Below are positions 1,154 through 60,881 of a DNA stretch of 64,000 bases, one piece after another (the first letter of the stretch is position 1; every line of letters starts with the position of its first letter). The notes beneath the pieces were generated by a model. It had not been told where the DNA came from, ran no database searches, and worked only from the letters and a program-made list of their open reading frames with translations. The DNA is from Actinomycetota bacterium (lineage in GTDB: Bacteria > Actinomycetota > Thermoleophilia > Solirubrobacterales > 70-9): the NCBI GenBank assembly GCA_018268675.1, contig JAFDWB010000009.1:62001-126000 (forward strand), in the 5' to 3' direction. The position numbers and the translations under genes were made by a program.

Positions 1154-2197
1154 CGTCGAGCAGCTCGCGCACGCGGGGGATCACCTCGCGGCCGAAGAGC
1201 TCGATCGCGGCGCGGCGCTGCTCGTGGGGGACCGCGCCGACGGCGTAGTGGAGGTCGAAGCGGCTCAGGCTGAGGGTGCCGGCCACCTCGGCGATCCGCC
1301 GCGCCACGGTCTCCGGGGAGCCCACGTAAAGCGAGCCGTGCTCGACTTCGGCGAGGAAGTGCTCGTAGGTCGGCGGCGCCCAGCCGCGCTCGCGGGAAGC
1401 GGCGGCGAACGCGTCCCTGTAGTGGGGCCACTGGATCGCGATCGCCTCCTCGTCGGTCTCGGCGACGAAGCCGAGGGAGTGGAGGCCGACCGGGAGCTGG
1501 GGCTGCCCGGTCTCCTCGAGCGCCCGCCGGTAGAGGTCGACGAGGGGGCGAAGCGCTCGGGGCTGCCGCCGATCACGGCCAGCATCAGCGGCAGGCCGAA
1601 GCGCGCCGCGCGCAGGACCGACTGGGGGCTGCCGCCGACCCCGACCCAGGTGGGGATGTTGCCGGGCGGGATCGGCGGGCTGACCGACTGCGCGGTGAGC
1701 GGCGGGCGGTGCCTGCCCGACCAGGTGACCGGCTGGTCGCGGAGCAGGCGCACGAGGAGGTCGAGCTTCTCCTCGAAGAGCTCCTCGTAGTCGGCGAGGT
1801 CGTAGCCGAACAGGGGGAAGGAGTCGGTCAGCGAGCCGCGGCCGACGATCAGCTGCGCGCGGCCGTCCGAGACCGCGTCGAGCGTGGCGAAGTTCGTGTA
1901 GAGGCGCACCGGGTCCTGGGTGCTGAGCACGGTGACAGCGGTGCCGAGCCGAATCCGCTCGGTCTGGGCGGCGATCGCCGCCAGCACCACGTGGTTGGCC
2001 GAGTCCATCATCTCGGTCCGGTAGTGCTCACCGATGTTGAACGAGTCGATCCCCACCGCCTCCGCGAGCACCCCTTCGGCGACGGTGTCGCGGACCACCT
2101 GGTCGCCGCCGATCGGGGCGCCCGAGGCGTCCATCGTGACCGGCATGAAGTTGTCGAGGCCGAACTCGAAGTCGTCAACATCGCGGTAATTAACCAT
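1128..2197 (-). pseudogene. LLM class flavin-dependent oxidoreductase, single frameshift
   Basis: From the ATG at 2197 the frame encodes an LLM (bacterial-luciferase-like) F420/FMN oxidoreductase: DNFMPVT near the N terminus, IGEHYRTE, LGTAVTVLSTQDPVRLYTNF, ISDGR-like VSDGRAQLIVGRGS, then NIPTWVGVGGSPQS. After GGSPERFAP the frame is lost, and the missing C-terminal half (GSPETVARRIAEVAG, then FDLHYAVGAVP) continues one base out of phase to the TGA at 1128-1130. Adding one G to the G5 run at 1544-1548 would give an intact 356-residue protein of normal family length. This is either a recent inactivation or a homopolymer sequencing error. Confidence 0.85.
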
Positions 2198-2198
2198 A

Positions 2199-2213
2199 GT
2201 GGTAGTTTACCAC
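2199..2213. promoter_or_regulatory. palindromic operator over a leaderless-type promoter
   Basis: GTGGTA-GTT-TACCAC is a perfect 6-bp inverted repeat ending one base before the ATG of the LLM gene at 2197. On the minus strand it contains TAAACT, a plausible -10 box, six bases ahead of the ATG, and there is no Shine-Dalgarno sequence, so the transcript is probably leaderless and the palindrome is placed to block it. A MarR- or TetR-type protein could bind here; the MarR gene at 2859 is the nearest candidate. Confidence 0.5.
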
Positions 2214-2251
2214 AAGTTAGGGGTCCGGGGCGCTTGCGCCCGTCCGAGATG

Positions 2252-2311
2252 CGTCCTGGGCGTCTCATGTGGGTCCTGGCAGGCTGTGACCCCCATGAGA
2301 CGCCCAGGACG
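2252..2311. repeat. palindrome, 17-bp arms
   Basis: CGTCCTGGGCGTCTCAT at 2252-2268 is exactly complementary to 2295-2311. A second short stem, GGGTC/GACCC (2271-2275 and 2288-2292), is nested inside, leaving a small loop. Not followed by a T tract and lying between divergent promoters, so not an ordinary terminator. Confidence 0.85.
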
Positions 2312-2343
2312 TGAGGGGTGCGTGGGGGAGCGTGCGCGGGGAC

Positions 2344-2367
2344 GTCACGAAGTCGGACTTCCGTGAC
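2344..2367. repeat. imperfect palindrome GTCACGAAGT / ACTTCCGTGAC
   Basis: Ten-base arms with one bulged base around CGG. A related element, GTCACGA...TTCGGTGAC, occurs in the reverse complement of about 53987-54011 in the second composite array. Confidence 0.6.
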
Positions 2368-2413
2368 CGCCCCGTGCGGAAGTGAGGCCGAGGAGACTCG
2401 GGACCGAGGCCCC

Positions 2414-2471
2414 GGGACGCGCTGCAAGGATTTAGGTCGCCATAGCGACACCAATCCTTGCAGCGCGTCCC
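2414..2471. repeat. palindrome family A (GCGCTGCAAGGATT arm)
   Basis: GGGACGCGCTGCAAGGATT (2414-2432) is a perfect 19-bp match to the complement of 2453-2471. A nested GTCGC-CAT-AGCGAC stem sits in the loop. The same outer arm with the same nested GTCGC/GCGAC stem recurs at 34420-34466 and 54058-54119. Confidence 0.9.
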
Positions 2472-2531
2472 GAGCGTCTGAGGAAGACGGGAGGAACGTG
2501 AACGATCTCCCCTTTCCTCGCCCCGACCTCC

Positions 2532-2578
2532 TCCAGCTGTTCCTTATGGCCGACATACCGGCATAAGGAACAGCTGGA
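2532..2578. repeat. palindrome family B (CTGTTCCTTA arm)
   Basis: TCCAGCTGTTCCTTATG at 2532-2548 pairs perfectly with 2562-2578, with a short CCG/CGG stem in the loop. The CTGTTCCTT arm recurs at 30629 and, as GTGTTCCTTACTTG, at 52411. Confidence 0.85.
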
Positions 2579-2612
2579 CGGAGGGCGTCCTTCGCGCGCA
2601 CCGTCCCCTCCC

Positions 2613-2661
2613 GGTGAGTTCGCACTTTCCCGCGCATGGCGCGGGTTTCTGCGAACTCATC
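2613..2661. repeat. palindrome family C (GTGAGTTCGCA arm)
   Basis: TGAGTTCGCA (2615-2624) pairs with TGCGAACTCA (2650-2659), and a separate perfect stem CCCGCGC/GCGCGGG is nested inside. The outer arm recurs, with paired changes, at 30688, 47427, 47503, 47564 and 60833, each time with a different nested stem. Confidence 0.85.
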
Positions 2662-2712
2662 GGGCCGTGGCCCCTGGAGCGGCGTGCCGACCCTTCCTCT
2701 CCCCCCGGACCC

Positions 2713-2762
2713 GGCCGTCTCGGCCACGGCCACAGCCCGCCAGGGCCGTGGCCGAGACGGCC
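2713..2762. repeat. palindrome family D (GCCGTCTCGGCCACG arm)
   Basis: Perfect 19-bp arms, 2713-2731 against 2744-2762, around a 12-base loop. A second member with the same arm lies at 53883-53934. Confidence 0.85.
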
Positions 2763-2858
2763 CGTCCCTTGCGCTTCGGGCGCCAGCTCCTCAGGGCCCC
2801 ATCCCTCCCTGGCCCCCACCCACCCCGAATCCCCCAACCAACCCTCTAGCCTGGGCCG

Positions 2859-3323
2859 ATGACCACTGCGGGCACCGACGGCGACCGGGTCCCGACCTCG
2901 ACCCTGCTCTCGAGCCTCGGCCGCGACGCGACCGCGCGCGTCCGCCTGGCGCTACGCCCGCTCTCGCTCACCGCGCAGCAGTTCCTCGTCCTCGAGCAAC
3001 TGCGGCTGACCGGCCCGACGAGCCAGGCCGACCTCGCCGACGCGGTCGGCATCGACCGCAGCAACCTGGCGACGATCGCCGCCGGGCTCTGCGACCGCGG
3101 GCTCGCCGAGCGCAGCCGCGACCCGGCCGACCGCCGCCGCTACCTGCTCGGCCTGAGTGCCGCCGGCGAGCGCCTCCTGGGTCGCGCCGAGACCGCCGTC
3201 GCGGCAGCCGAGGAGGAGCTGCTCGCCCCGCTCGACCCCGCCCGCCGCGCGCAGCTCCACGGCCTGCTGCGCCGGCTCGCCGACGGCGCCCGGCTCTGCC
3301 CGACCGAACGGGAGGACGGGTAG
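2859..3323 (+). CDS. MarR family transcriptional regulator
   Basis: A 154-residue winged-helix DNA-binding protein. The core runs LSLTAQQFLVLEQLRLTGPT, then SQADLADAVGIDRSNLATIA as the recognition helix region, then the wing DPADRRRYLLGLSAAG, which is the diagnostic MarR D-x-R-D/R signature. A C-terminal helix for dimerisation follows. MarR proteins usually bind short palindromes and release them on binding phenolic ligands or on oxidation. It lies downstream of a palindrome array and upstream of a flavoprotein; the GTGGTAGTTTACCAC site before the LLM gene is a candidate operator, but this is inference. Confidence 0.9.
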   Translation: MTTAGTDGDRVPTSTLLSSLGRDATARVRLALRPLSLTAQQFLVLEQLRLTGPTSQADLADAVGIDRSNLATIAAGLCDRGLAERSRDPADRRRYLLGLSAAGERLLGRAETAVAAAEEELLAPLDPARRAQLHGLLRRLADGARLCPTEREDG

Positions 3324-15951: not shown

Positions 15952-18537
15952 ATGGAGCACCGACCGTGGCGGGCCCGCGCGGTGGCAGGGGAGACCCTGC
16001 CGCCGCCGGACCGTGCCCGGTCGTTCGACGTGGCGGTGGTCGGCGGCGGGCTGGTCGGGTTGCAGGCGGCGCTGCGGATCGTCGCCGAGGCGCCGGGGAC
16101 CGGCGTGGCGGTGCTCGAGCGGGATGTCTGCGGCGCCGGTGCGTCGGGGCGTAACGGGGGTCAGCTCCACTCCTGGTGGGACCGGGCCGGCGCGCTGGAG
16201 GTGGCGTGCGGCGAAGCCGAGGCGGTGCGGCTGGCGCGGGCGACCGAGGCGGGCATCGACGAGCTGGTCGAGCTCGCCCGGCGCCGGCCCGAGGTCGGGC
16301 TGCGCCAGGACGGCTGGGTCTGGACCGCGGCGAGCGCGGCGCAGGTCGGCAGCTGGGACGCGGTGGTCGCCAGGGCGCGTGAGCTCGGCGGGGACCCGTA
16401 CCGCGAGGTGCCGGCACCGGAGCTCGAGCGGCGCAGCGGATCGCCGCTGGTGCGGGCCGCGATCGAGGAGCCGCGCGGCGGCTCGCTCTTCCCGCCGGGG
16501 CTGGTCGCGGCGCTGCGCGAGGAGGCGCTCGCCGCGGGGGTCGAGATCTTCGAGCGCACGCCGGTGCGGGGGCTGTGGGCCGGATCGCGGTCGCGGCTCG
16601 CCACCGCGGCGGGCGAGATCACGGCCGGCGCCGTGGTGCTGGCGACGAACGCCTGGGCGGCCCGACTGCCGGCGCTGCGCAGGCGCCTCTTCGTGGTCGG
16701 CAGCGACATGGTGCTGACGGCCCCCGTCCCCGATCTTCTCGCCGCGCGGGGGTGGAGCGGTGGAGAGGCGGTCTGCGATTCGCAGGCCCGCGTCCTCTAC
16801 TGGACCGCGACGCCCGACGGCCGGGTCGCGTTCGGCCGCGGTGGCGGCCGGATCGCCCCGTTCAACCGGATCGCCACGCGCTTCGAGGGCGCCTCGCGCT
16901 GGAGCGAGGACGCGGCGGCGGCGATGCGCCGCACGCTCCCTTATATGGATGGGGTCGAGATCGAGGCGTCCTGGAGCGGCGCCGTCGACCGGACCGTCGA
17001 CGGCCTGCCGCTGCTGGGCCGGCTCGAGGCCGGCGCGAACGTCTTCTACGGGGTCGGCTGGAGCGGTTCGGGCGTCGTGCCGTCGATCGTCGGCGGCCGG
17101 GTGCTGGCCGGGCTCGCGCTGGGGCGCGAGGACGAGTGGACCCGCTCGCCGCTCGTCGACCGCGCGGCGCCGGCGTTCCCCCCCGAGCCGCTGCGCACCC
17201 TCGGCGCCGGCCTCGTCCGCGAAGGCGTGCGGCGGGTGGCGGCGGCCGAGGACGAGGGACGGGAGCCGTCGCGCCCCGCCCGCGCGCTGGCGTCGCTTAC
17301 CCCGACCGCGCCGGCGCGCGGCGCTCCACCCACGCCCCCCGCCTCCCAAGCTTCCGAGCTTTGCCGCCACATATGGCCGAAAAGCTCGGAAGCAGGTGGG
17401 GCGGCCCCGGAGCCCTTCGATGCTGCGGCGGCGGCCGCCTATGTCGCGGGCCACCCCTTGTTGGCCCCGCGGGTCGGCGCGGTCGAGTCGGTCGAACGGC
17501 CCGACGAAGGCAACATCAACGAGGTCTACCTGGTCCGCGGCGAGCGCGGCGGGGTGGTGTTGAAGCAGGGCCTGCCCTGGGTGCGGATCCTCCGCGACTG
17601 GCCGCTGAGCGCCGAGCGCACCGCCCGCGAGGCGCACCTGATGGCGACCTGGGAGCCGTTCGGCGAGGGCCTCGTCCCGGAGCTGATCGACTACGACGCC
17701 GAGCGCCACGTGCTGACGATGGAACTGGTCGAGGACCACCTGATCTACCGCGAGGCGCTGGCCCAGGGGGAGGTGCACGCCGATGCCGCCGCGGCGCTCG
17801 GCGCCCTGCTCGCCCGGGCGGCCTTCCACACCTCGAGCTTCCGACTCGATCCGCCGCAGCTCGCCGCCGCCGCGGCGGCGGCCGAGAACCCGGAGATGCA
17901 CCAGCTGATGGAGCAGGTCGTCTACGAGCAGCCCTACGCGGGCGATCCGCGCAACACCTACGACGAGGAGGTGGCGCCGACGGTCGCGGCGCTCGCCCGC
18001 GACCGCGCCTACCGCCGCGGCATCGGGGCCCTGAAGATCGCCCACCGCACGCGCGGCGAAGCGCTCCTGCACGGCGACCTCCACACCGGCAGCGTGATGG
18101 TCGCGCCCGGCTCGGTGCGGGTGATCGACGCCGAGTTCGCCCGCTACGGCCCGGTCGCCTGGGACGTCGGCGAGCTGTGGGCCCACGAGCGGATCGCCGC
18201 CGTCTGCCTGGCGGCGCGGGGCGAGCCGGCCGCGGCGGCCGCGGCGACGCTGGTGGCGACGACCTGGGAGGGGTTCGGCGCGCAGCTCCGTGAGCTGTGG
18301 CCCGAGCGCCGCGACCGGACCTTCGCCGACGACTTCGTCGAGGACTGGCTGGCGGAGGTCCGCGCGCCGGCGGTGCGCTTCGCCGGCGCCGAGATCGCTC
18401 GCCGGGTGATCGGGATCGGCAAGGCCGACGAGGTCGAGGAACTGCCACGCGAGCTGCGCGCCGCGGTCGCCGCGCAGCTGCTCGAGGAAGCGCACGCGGC
18501 GGTCTGCCGCGGGGAGGGGGCGGCGTGGCCGACCTGA
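15952..18537 (+). CDS. fusion: FAD-dependent DadA-like oxidase + MtnK-like kinase
   Basis: One open frame of 861 residues. Residues 1-455 are a D-amino-acid-oxidase-fold flavoprotein (dinucleotide motif VAVVGGGLVGLQAALR, GASGRNGGQLHSW, C-terminal FAD motif NVFYGVGWSGSGVVPSIVGG). Residues about 482-861 are a methylthioribose-kinase-like phosphotransferase (DEGNINEVYLVRG, VVLKQGLPWVRILRDWPLSA, catalytic loop LLHGDLHTGS near 704-713, metal-binding VIDAEFARYG). Between them a Pro/Ala linker is encoded partly by a perfect palindrome (17351-17392). There is no stop or good internal start, so the two are translated as one polypeptide. It likely oxidises an amine or amino sugar and phosphorylates a sugar in the same pathway; substrate unknown. 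Confidence 0.85.
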   Translation: MEHRPWRARAVAGETLPPPDRARSFDVAVVGGGLVGLQAALRIVAEAPGTGVAVLERDVCGAGASGRNGGQLHSWWDRAGALEVACGEAEAVRLARATEAGIDELVELARRRPEVGLRQDGWVWTAASAAQVGSWDAVVARARELGGDPYREVPAPELERRSGSPLVRAAIEEPRGGSLFPPGLVAALREEALAAGVEIFERTPVRGLWAGSRSRLATAAGEITAGAVVLATNAWAARLPALRRRLFVVGSDMVLTAPVPDLLAARGWSGGEAVCDSQARVLYWTATPDGRVAFGRGGGRIAPFNRIATRFEGASRWSEDAAAAMRRTLPYMDGVEIEASWSGAVDRTVDGLPLLGRLEAGANVFYGVGWSGSGVVPSIVGGRVLAGLALGREDEWTRSPLVDRAAPAFPPEPLRTLGAGLVREGVRRVAAAEDEGREPSRPARALASLTPTAPARGAPPTPPASQASELCRHIWPKSSEAGGAAPEPFDAAAAAAYVAGHPLLAPRVGAVESVERPDEGNINEVYLVRGERGGVVLKQGLPWVRILRDWPLSAERTAREAHLMATWEPFGEGLVPELIDYDAERHVLTMELVEDHLIYREALAQGEVHADAAAALGALLARAAFHTSSFRLDPPQLAAAAAAAENPEMHQLMEQVVYEQPYAGDPRNTYDEEVAPTVAALARDRAYRRGIGALKIAHRTRGEALLHGDLHTGSVMVAPGSVRVIDAEFARYGPVAWDVGELWAHERIAAVCLAARGEPAAAAAATLVATTWEGFGAQLRELWPERRDRTFADDFVEDWLAEVRAPAVRFAGAEIARRVIGIGKADEVEELPRELRAAVAAQLLEEAHAAVCRGEGAAWPT
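17351..17392. repeat. palindrome inside the oxidase-kinase fusion
   Basis: CTTCCGAGCTTT at 17351-17362 is exactly complementary to AAAGCTCGGAAG at 17381-17392, with GCC/GGC nested and CATATG in the loop. It is 42 bases (14 codons), keeps the frame open and supplies the linker residues around SELCRHIWPKSSE. It has the same architecture as the intergenic palindromes; the CATATG loop is shared with the element at 34349. Confidence 0.85.
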
Positions 18538-30537: not shown

Positions 30538-30585
30538 CGCGGCCATCCCCCTCATGCTCCGGCTGTTATGAGGGGGATGGCCGCG
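30538..30585. repeat. palindrome family E (GCCATCCCCCTCAT arm)
   Basis: Arms of 18 bp (30538-30555 and 30568-30585) with core GGCCATCCCCCTCAT. The same core occurs at 47365, and the flanking GC-rich sequence CGGCCGGCGCC is also shared, so the repeat unit is longer than the hairpin. Confidence 0.85.
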
Positions 30586-30628
30586 CCTTGGCCTGCGCCG
30601 GCCCGGGGCGCGGGCGGGGTCCTCGGTC

Positions 30629-30669
30629 AGCTGTTCCTTATGCCGGAGGGGTCGGCAGAAGGAACAGCC
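30629..30669. repeat. palindrome family B
   Basis: AGCTGTTCCTTATGCCG is followed by CGGCAGAAGGAACAGC; the outer 10 bp (GCTGTTCCTT) pair perfectly and the loop has a short CCG/CGG stem. Same arm as 2532-2578. Confidence 0.8.
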
Positions 30670-30686
30670 GGCGGCCCGTCTCCCCC

Positions 30687-30735
30687 CGTGAGTTCGCAGT
30701 TTGCCGTACCGGTTACGGCAAAGTGCGAACTCACC
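30687..30735. repeat. palindrome family C
   Basis: GTGAGTTCGCA (30688-30698) pairs with TGCGAACTCAC (30724-30734); nested TTTGCCGTA/TACGGCAAA replaces the CCCGCGC stem of the 2613 copy. Families B and C keep the same order here and at 2532-2661. Confidence 0.85.
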
Positions 30736-30786
30736 GGAGGTGGCCGGGGGCTCCCCGGCCCGGCGCGGGCCGAGGCGGCGGCCGGC

Positions 30787-34348: not shown

Positions 34349-34391
34349 GATGGGCCGAAAACCTGACATATGGGCGGGTTTTCGGCCCATC
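34349..34391. repeat. palindrome with GATGGGCCGAAAACC arms
   Basis: Perfect 15-bp arms, 34349-34363 and 34377-34391, with CATATG in the 13-base loop, as in the palindrome inside the oxidase-kinase gene. Confidence 0.85.
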
Positions 34392-34419
34392 GATCTGGCG
34401 GGCGGCAGGGGGACGGTCA

Positions 34420-34466
34420 CGCTGCAGCGATCTTGGTCGCTCTGGCGACCCAAATCCTTGCAGCGC
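34420..34466. repeat. palindrome family A, degenerate
   Basis: CGCTGCAGCGATCTTGGTCGC and its partner ending AAATCCTTGCAGCG keep the outer CGCTGCA/TGCAGCG pairing and the nested GGTCGC/GGCGACC stem of family A but have mismatches between. It lies between convergent genes. Confidence 0.75.
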
Positions 34467-47336: not shown

Positions 47337-47364
47337 GGCGCCGCCGGCCGGCGCCCGCGGCGCC

Positions 47365-47405
47365 GCCATCCCCCTCATAGTTCGGCTGATTATGAGGGGG
47401 ATGGC
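47365..47405. repeat. palindrome family E
   Basis: GCCATCCCCCTCATA and TATGAGGGGGATGGC pair over 15 bp (47365-47379 and 47391-47405). Same core and GC-rich flank as the copy at 30538. Confidence 0.85.
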
Positions 47406-47426
47406 CGCGCTTTGGCGTGCGCCACG

Positions 47427-47479
47427 CCGGTGCGTTCGCAGTTGGCCACAACAGTTGTGGATAAGTGCGAACGCACCGG
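47427..47479. repeat. palindrome family C
   Basis: CCGGTGCGTTCGCA (47427-47440) pairs with 47466-47479; nested CCACAA-CAG-TTGTGG. The change of GAG to GCG in the arm is matched on the other side. Confidence 0.85.
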
Positions 47480-47502
47480 TTCCGGGCCCCGGCGGGGGCT
47501 CG

Positions 47503-47551
47503 GGTGCGTTCGCACTTATCGTCGCCATCCGACGATTACTGCGAACTCACC
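47503..47551. repeat. palindrome family C, one arm mismatch
   Basis: GGTGCGTTCGCA pairs with TGCGAACTCACC with one mismatch, so one arm is the GAG and the other the GCG variant. Nested ATCGTCG/CGACGAT. Confidence 0.8.
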
Positions 47552-47563
47552 AGGGGCGCCGCG

Positions 47564-47610
47564 GTGCGTTCGTCGTTAGGGCTCCTATTCCGAACTAACG
47601 ACGAACGCAC
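47564..47610. repeat. palindrome family C, extended
   Basis: GTGCGTTCGTCGTTAG (47564-47579) pairs perfectly with 47595-47610. The 5' part GTGCGTTCG is family C; the rest replaces the nested stem by a longer outer one. Confidence 0.8.
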
Positions 47611-47648
47611 GCCGCGGCCTGTGCCCTCCGGTCACCGGATACGCACGA

Positions 47649-47702
47649 GGCGCGCCCGTCCCGCCCTCATGGCCGCCGTAGTGAGGGTGGGACGGGCGCG
47701 CC
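47649..47702. repeat. palindrome, 21-bp arms, one mismatch
   Basis: GGCGCGCCCGTCCC-G-CCCTCA at 47649-47669 pairs with 47682-47702 apart from one G-T position; the CCCTCA part recalls family E. Loop TGGCCGCCGTAG. Confidence 0.8.
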
Positions 47703-47731
47703 GACGGCGTCAGCCGGCCGGCTCTCGACCC

Positions 47732-49267: not shown

Positions 49268-49300
49268 CGACGCTTGTCTTCCATACGAAGACAAGCGTCG
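49268..49300. terminator. bidirectional hairpin between convergent genes
   Basis: CGACGCTTGTCTTC (49268-49281) pairs perfectly with 49287-49300 around a five-base loop. It lies 20 bases past the dipeptidase stop and 19 before the end of the hydrolase on the other strand, a good place for a two-way terminator, although there is no U tract. In architecture it is one of the window's palindromes. Confidence 0.6.
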
Positions 49301-52410: not shown

Positions 52411-52451
52411 CGGTGTTCCTTACTTGCATATATGACAAGTAAGGAACACCG
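52411..52451. repeat. palindrome family B
   Basis: CGGTGTTCCTTACTTG (52411-52426) pairs perfectly with 52436-52451; loop CATATATGA. The GTTCCTTA core is that of family B. Confidence 0.85.
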
Positions 52452-53803: not shown

Positions 53804-53882
53804 TCCGCGCCGGTAATCGACCGGGTGAACCTTGGGCCCCGCTGAAGCCTTCGCCGGCCGGCGCCTGAAGCAGCAAGGGACG

Positions 53883-53934
53883 CGGCCGTCTCGGCCACGA
53901 CCCTGGCAGGCTGTGGCCGTGGCCGAGACGGCCG
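53883..53934. repeat. palindrome family D
   Basis: CGGCCGTCTCGGCCACG (53883-53899) pairs perfectly with 53918-53934. Same arm as 2713-2762, with a longer loop. Confidence 0.85.
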
Positions 53935-54057
53935 GGTCTGTGGGGAGGAGTAAGGGTCGCGTCGGGCTCACGGGAGCGCCACGGATCCGTCACCGAAGTA
54001 AGACCTCGTGACGAAGATCCCGGGAACGTCACGGTTCCTTCCGTCTTCTTCAGACGT

Positions 54058-54119
54058 CTGGGACGCGCTGCAACGATAAGTGTCGCTATGGCGACCTGAA
54101 TCCTTGCAGCGCGTCCCAG
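54058..54119. repeat. palindrome family A
   Basis: CTGGGACGCGCTGCAA (54058-54073) pairs perfectly with 54104-54119; nested GTCGC/GCGAC stem as in the 2414 copy, with the segment between outer and inner stems diverged. Confidence 0.88.
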
Positions 54120-54250
54120 GGGCCTCGATATGGGCCTCCGGAGGGCCAGAGAGTGTGACGTTCCCGGCATCTTCGTCACGACCCGTGCCGTCATCCCGAC
54201 GAACCGCCCAAGACGTCCTCGGACCGGCGCCACGCCCCCACCACAACCCC

Positions 54251-60832: not shown

Positions 60833-60881
60833 GGTGCGTTCGCACTTATCTACAACTGTTGTGGTCAACTGCGAACTCACC
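60833..60881. repeat. palindrome family C
   Basis: GGTGCGTTCGCA (60833-60844) pairs with TGCGAACTCACC (60870-60881) with one mismatch; nested ACAAC/GTTGT, part of the same sequence as the nested stem at 47446. It lies between two genes read in the same direction. Confidence 0.85.

Follow-up and report, generated by a model that had tools for sequence, protein, structure and literature searches.

RUP, Correia and ERIC sequences are simple units with terminal inverted repeats, and the intergenic mosaic elements of Rhizobium (RIME/ABC) are mosaics of successive intergenic palindromes. The BOX repeats of Streptococcus pneumoniae and S. suis consist of a fixed boxA module at the 5' end, a variable number of inner boxB modules and a fixed boxC at the 3' end; S. 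suis also has the alternative end modules boxE and boxF (PMC3049150). BOX elements are 67-637 bp long, form stem-loops, are intergenic and clade-restricted, and were judged to be non-autonomous and parasitic (PMC3049150). The CGTC group of REPs is without a known dedicated transposase (PMC3733652, PMC2817692).

Region 2252-2762 of the 64-kb stretch of DNA analysed here (the window, GC content 73%) is one copy of a non-coding repeat of about 0.55 kb, a series of at least six DNA hairpins. The repeat has multiplied to dozens or hundreds of intergenic copies within a single clade of an uncultured genus of actinobacteria. We consider it probable that it is a non-autonomous, modular interspersed element similar to a small parasite, which spread in trans and whose copies survive beside stop codons. 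A keyword search of the open literature found no paper on palindromic repeats in this bacterial group.

Architecture of the repeat

The sequence-only reading of the locus had described an array of six inverted repeats within 510 bases. All six (A, X, B, C, D and E) are present, but the repeated unit is about 552 bp long (2236-2787), and what had been missed is that the palindromes at 2252-2762 form a single element with fixed ends which is gained and lost as a unit. Similarity between copies in blastn and the alignment reaches beyond this core, to about 2220-2815. The window copy sits in a divergent gap between a luciferase-like gene and a MarR gene (Table 1).

A head motif and hairpin A open the element, inner hairpins that differ between copies follow, and hairpin E and a tail motif close it. 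The 5' and 3' modules are fixed. Between them both the number and the type of hairpins change, and B, C, D, J or other types are found depending on the copy and the species. The head reads GCGGCCGTCCGAG in the aligned copies, and the window copy has GCGCCCGTCCGAG from 2236. Hairpins A and E carry a nearly invariant asymmetric loop of 14 nt, CCTGGCAGGCTGTG and its reverse complement; the consensus CC[T/G]GGC[A/G]GGCTGTG is found in both of them in opposite orientation. Where both hairpins of an inward-facing loop pair could be typed, the pair was A+E in 43 cases out of 44 and A+A in one. The spacing between the A and E loops is 231-673, with eight copies of the source genome at 412-414; these have a median whole-copy identity of 87% and a maximum of 93%.

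The predicted fold of the element is very stable (z -15.5) and pairs the head with the tail. Terminal inverted repeats outside the hairpins did not rise above shuffled controls in most copies when flank was compared to flank. In some copies (L146, L151, L153) the head (CCCGTCCGAGATG) and tail (CCATCCCTTGCCCTCCGGGCGACAGC) motifs are present in 2-3 tandem repeats.

Table 1. Coordinates of the element, its parts and neighbours, and of other hairpins in the 64-kb window
Feature	Position	Strand	Evidence or context
Flanking gene, luciferase-like	1265-2197	-	Pfam
Element core, head to tail (552 bp)	2236-2787	+	Found by blastn; aligned with 17 further copies
Head motif GCGCCCGTCCGAG	2236-2248	+	Common start of 41 compared copies; pairs with tail in predicted fold
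Terminal hairpin A, 24-bp arms, loop CTGGCAGGCTGT	2252-2311	+	Inverted-repeat search; covariation
Inner hairpin X, weak, GTCACGAAGTCGGACTTCCGTGAC core	2334-2377	+	
Inner hairpin B, CATA tip	2413-2472	+	Inverted and homogenised forms found at other copies
Inner hairpin C, tip GACATACC	2532-2578	+	
Inner hairpin D, outer arms GTGAGTTCGCA	2610-2664	+	
Terminal hairpin E, loop ACAGCCCGCCAG, inverted relative of A	2713-2762	+	
Tail motif CGGGCGCCAGC	2777-2787	+	Common end of compared copies
Flanking gene, MarR	2859-3323	+	Pfam
Second composite: F (30538-30585), C type (30630-30668), D type (30682-30740)	30538-30740		
Standalone GATGGGCCGAAAACC hairpin (34349-34391) and B-type hairpin (34420-34465)	34349-34465		Convergent gap
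Composite: F (47360-47410), D-type palindromes, hairpin (47564-47610), F-like (47649-47702)	47360-47702		Convergent gap
CGACGCTTGTCTTC hairpin, CATAC tip	49268-49300		Convergent gap; one of a family
GGTGTTCCTTACTTG hairpin, CATATATGA tip	52411-52451		Convergent gap
Partial copy: E (53879-53938) and B (54058-54119), no A end recognised	53857-54127	-	Adjoins tRNA gene
D-type hairpin with one unmatched arm variant	60833-60881		

Copies and carriers

The source genome is a 4.2-Mb draft in 95 contigs, and its copies were recorded from genome-wide searches and from sampled stretches. For a protein encoded next to the element the best match with a name comes from a Thermoleophilia bin (85% identity), and by this one protein the host is probably a member of the Thermoleophilia. 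The degenerate loop pattern has 98 matches in this genome against one for the reversed control pattern, far above chance. Hairpin A is present in at least 40 copies, and about 18 near-complete copies of the element plus many partial ones were detected by blastn in 445 kb.

Out of 232 genomes of the order, six genomes of one genus are carriers, with 64 to 314 loop matches (G006, 314; G008, 309; G011, 195; source genome, 98; G007, 86; G003, 64). In each of the remaining 226, among them the other six genomes of this genus, the count is 0 to 2. Judging from the loop counts, a genome may have up to about 150 copies. In a tree of the 12 genus genomes built from four loci, one branch splits the six carriers from the six non-carriers with 100% bootstrap and local support of 1.000. 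One expansion in one clade is the simplest reading of this distribution. The repeat is an abundant, lineage-confined hairpin array in uncultured actinobacteria. Viral, plasmid and phage collections gave no match to the element. Among the 12 genus genomes, assemblies of carriers are 3.8-4.7 Mb in size and those of non-carriers 2.4-3.4 Mb.

Many contigs of the source genome have loop copies within about 400 nt of their ends (C25, C42, C55, C59, C60, C63, C65, C67, C74, C78, C80, C84, C86 and C93). Since repeats break contigs, the youngest and most identical copies may be missing from the assembly; no near-identical young copies were found in it, and the many contigs ending in repeats could hide them.

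Presence and absence at orthologous gaps

Four sites (S1 to S4) were compared across genomes. At site S3 the source genome holds the element, and five congeners have gaps of 41, 29, 23, 24 and 32 nt. Site S4 is filled in the source genome and in G008, with 2 nt left in G007 and 7 nt in G002, and at site S2 the gaps in G003 and G009 are 36 and 1 nt. Site S1 is occupied in one orientation in the source genome and G006 and in the opposite one in G008, with 70 nt in G010. The reverse case was found as well: locus L161 of G007 is filled and corresponds to a 22-nt gap in the source genome, both flanking genes being present in both. Orthologous gaps are thus either empty, at 1-41 nt, or filled, once in the opposite orientation, which means that the element is gained or lost as a unit and without its neighbours.

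In principle, deletion of an ancestral unit could explain this pattern, although several gaps are empty in both clades. In the comparison for target-site duplications the empty sites come from other species, and their flanks are too diverged to align well. The sharp split between carriers and non-carriers, together with the empty orthologous sites, makes a direct comparison possible on how palindromic repeats without RAYT move.

Position relative to genes

None of the copies overlaps a called gene. For 34 copies of the source genome both neighbours were called: 15 have convergent neighbours, 11 follow a gene on the same strand, five are in the opposite tandem arrangement and three have divergent neighbours. 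The element is present in 15 of 87 convergent gene pairs and in 21 of 472 other pairs (p=8.5e-5), in regions that were partly picked for holding copies and with genes from a simple codon-usage caller. Copies adjoin stop codons, and hairpin A lies near the stop codon of the upstream gene. Hairpins with a score of at least 12 were absent from shuffled gaps; among real gaps of at least 25 nt, in a sample enriched for elements, they were present in 33 of 60 between convergent genes, 30 of 181 between tandem genes and 6 of 83 between divergent ones.

Such a location, with strong hairpins richest in convergent gaps, the A hairpin close to a stop codon and a very stable predicted fold, would fit a host-functional 3'-end element, i.e., bidirectional terminators or protectors of mRNA 3' ends kept between convergent genes for their function. 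We find this explanation improbable. The orthologous gaps of relatives work with 1-41 nt and no hairpin, six sister genomes do without the element altogether, and several copies, that of the window included, lie between divergent genes. No terminator with a T-tract was found in 1900-3100. Neither is the location specific, as the same one has been reported for REPs in bacteria of other phyla (PMC3733652). It is sufficiently explained by purifying selection against insertions elsewhere.

Pairing of the stems

In the stems of hairpin A (31 distinct sequences) 95.7% of cells are paired, and 9 of the 24 pairs change on both sides. None of 500 shuffles came up to the hairpins in paired fraction or in covariation score, and the signal collapsed in slid controls; half-changed pairs are also common. 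In 110 distinct terminal hairpins from the six genomes 89.5% of cells are Watson-Crick, against 56.5% in shuffles. Paired changes thus exceed those in shuffles, and the outer arms are conserved by family while the inner stems differ yet stay paired, as the sequence-only reading had it. Arm variants (GAG/GCG) are usually matched on both sides as it also claimed, with exceptions such as 60833-60881, where GTGCG stands against CTCAC.

Its further suggestion, selection on structure rather than on sequence, is not supported in that form. The two-tier hairpin design and the covariation are there, but sequence conservation is seen in the terminal loops, outer arms, head and tail, and pairing could also be maintained by mutation. 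The inner stem of hairpin B occurs in forms typical of template-switch products: the orientation is normal in six copies and inverted in three, and in four copies both arms are identical (homogenised). Template switching between inverted repeats has been described to homogenise their arms and to invert the spacer (PMC8604942), and hairpin stems can arise and persist by this process (PMC8794818). Because template switching also keeps pairing, the covariation, real as it is, does not by itself prove selection on a cruciform or an RNA. Homogenised and inverted stems are a warning against taking covariation in DNA palindromes as proof of such function. The same B stem forms would be expected if template switching had produced the palindromes on the spot and no unit had moved, but dozens of unrelated loci share the head, A, E and tail sequences, and an origin of this kind is extremely unlikely.

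That the loops of A and E keep one orientation and one sequence is a better sign of function, because the B stem flips in the same elements. Among interspersed repeats the combination of a constant loop with covarying stems is unusual, and it suggests that folded ends are recognised. Invariant loops on covarying stems could also belong to a dispersed family of structured non-coding RNAs, with their own promoter, acting in trans and using the loops as pairing sites. The A and E loops are complementary, and when both ends are read with the loop CACAGCCTGCCAGG, G-T mismatches outnumber A-C ones (81 vs 37). However, the element gave no Rfam 15 match above the gathering score, tRNA being the only one in the window, no sigma-70-like promoter was found, and the composition of the interior is not conserved. 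Within copies, variants of the A and E loops showed no covariation visible by eye, and the mismatch asymmetry rests largely on one position. An RNA family is therefore quite unlikely. Kissing of the A and E loops was dropped for want of such covariation at the variable loop positions, and the mismatch asymmetry was set aside as a test for RNA.

Further hairpins

The window contains 20 non-overlapping hairpins with a score of at least 13, compared to 1 to 6 in three random sequences matched to it in length and trinucleotide composition. A hairpin search recovered every recurrence that had been proposed from the sequence, at 30.5, 34.4, 47.4-47.7, 52.4, 53.9-54.3 and 60.8 kb. The hairpin at 49.3 kb, earlier taken for a singleton, turned out to belong to a family with four members in 445 kb of the source genome. 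An ATA or TAT tip is present in 66 of 158 distinct inner and standalone hairpins and in 2.8% of nearby 10-mers.

A second type of composite is located at 47337-47731 (convergent gap) and 30538-30740 (tandem gap). Its D-type hairpins are bordered on one or both sides by F hairpins (CCCCCTCAT arms, YCGGCNG in the loops), and it may represent another element family with end loops of its own. Another hairpin family has a conserved 28-nt loop GAGCGAACCTCCCGCAGTTCGTGAGCGA (L017:7834, L019:18979, L028:8483, L153:1727, L203:718-1510); at L203 of G003 two such hairpins, in facing orientation and separated by about 700 bp, flank a gene which looks zinc-peptidase-like by eye. Long hairpins with arms of 25-26 bp at L022:13705-13768 and L023:428-489 have the loop CCCGCAGGGTGT, whose pattern resembles that of CTGGCAGGCTGT in hairpin A, and are possibly a further related end type.

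One palindrome (GCTTCCGAGCTTT..., CATA tip) lies in frame within a gene of the window (17350-17393 in 15952-18537, 861 aa) and is also found at L130:4784. By eye, it follows a FAD oxidoreductase domain and apparently falls into the linker to a C-terminal kinase-like part. It resembles the palindromic insertions into genes reported in Rickettsia.

Search for a mover and possible mode of spread

RAYT, which had already been noted as missing from the window, is missing from the genus too: Y1_Tnp/RAYT (PF01797) was found in none of the 12 genomes, while the control search was positive in five known genomes. REP/BIME elements moved by the RAYT tyrosine transposase would form extragenic palindromes in mosaic clusters at gene 3' ends, as seen here and in REPs (PMC3733652). 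Apart from the missing PF01797, the units are larger and without GTAG or the unpaired CGTC tag of REPs (PMC3733652); the CGTC at the foot of hairpin A is paired. We regard movement by RAYT as very unlikely.

In the 12 genus genomes RVT_1, DDE_Tnp_1 and IS110 (DEDD) did not correlate with carriers. Tyrosine recombinases are present in all 12 and are therefore uninformative. No A-E pair encloses a gene among the loop positions of the source genome, and no recurrent mobile-element family was seen among the 25 families listed for the flanking genes. A zincin-like gene between two GAGCGAACC hairpins at L203 of G003 was considered as an autonomous relative and rejected, as its product is peptidase-like by eye and the same gene adjoins the element in G008. 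A gene-cassette or integron reading was also rejected: two empty sites keep the neighbour genes, so that gene and element presumably do not move together.

We favour a non-autonomous interspersed element, although no autonomous copy or mover was found, the flanks are too diverged to detect a target-site duplication and the gene sample around copies was partly chosen for holding them. The mover could have been lost, missed in unassembled repeats, or belong to a family outside those searched. The element might be spread by a trans-acting recombinase or transposase that recognises the two terminal hairpins, which are inverted to each other and carry the constant asymmetric loop. Insertions elsewhere would disrupt genes, operons or promoters, and copies would last mainly beside stop codons. 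Inner hairpins would be swapped between copies, and replication template switching plus some folding constraint would keep the stems paired. As a by-product, strong RNA hairpins would probably appear at the 3' ends of transcripts.

We also see a small chance that the repeat represents an undescribed class of mobile DNA, the ends of which are recognised as extruded or single-stranded hairpins. The loop on a covarying stem would then be the candidate enzyme site, and at least two further end types with other constant loops in the same genomes (F and the one with the loop GAGCGAACCTCCCGCAGTTCGTGAGCGA) would follow the same principle.

Relation to described repeats

RUP, Correia, ERIC and MITE-like repeats are, like the repeat described here, short non-coding non-autonomous interspersed sequences able to fold (reviewed in PMC2229807), but the latter is an array of six or more hairpins with changing composition. 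With regard to a DDE-type MITE, E resembles A in inverted orientation and the predicted fold joins head and tail, but inverted similarity between the flanks outside them is at control level in most copies. RIME/ABC elements, cited in PMC2873474, share the mosaic of palindromes in another lineage, a likeness by description only.

BIMEs and the GTAG and CGTC REPs are likewise extragenic mosaics of palindromes located by 3' ends, next to convergent or unidirectional genes (PMC3733652, PMC2817692). REPs, however, are 20-40 bp long with short stems and unpaired GTAG/CGTC tags, while here palindromes of 45-60 bp make up a fixed-end unit in a genus without RAYT. The repeat is not a RAYT-driven REP.

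With BOX it shares the fixed ends combined with variable inner modules and the polymorphic insertion at orthologous sites. The similarity is one of architecture, and the host is distant, with a GC content of 73%. BOX has terminal inverted repeats and target-site duplications (PMC3049150). The end modules here are long hairpins with a constant asymmetric loop, and the inner ones are long palindromes, many with ATA or TAT tips. Overall, by analogy, the way the repeat works would place it with non-autonomous interspersed elements of the BOX/BIME type, its nearest counterparts being pneumococcal BOX and BIMEs.
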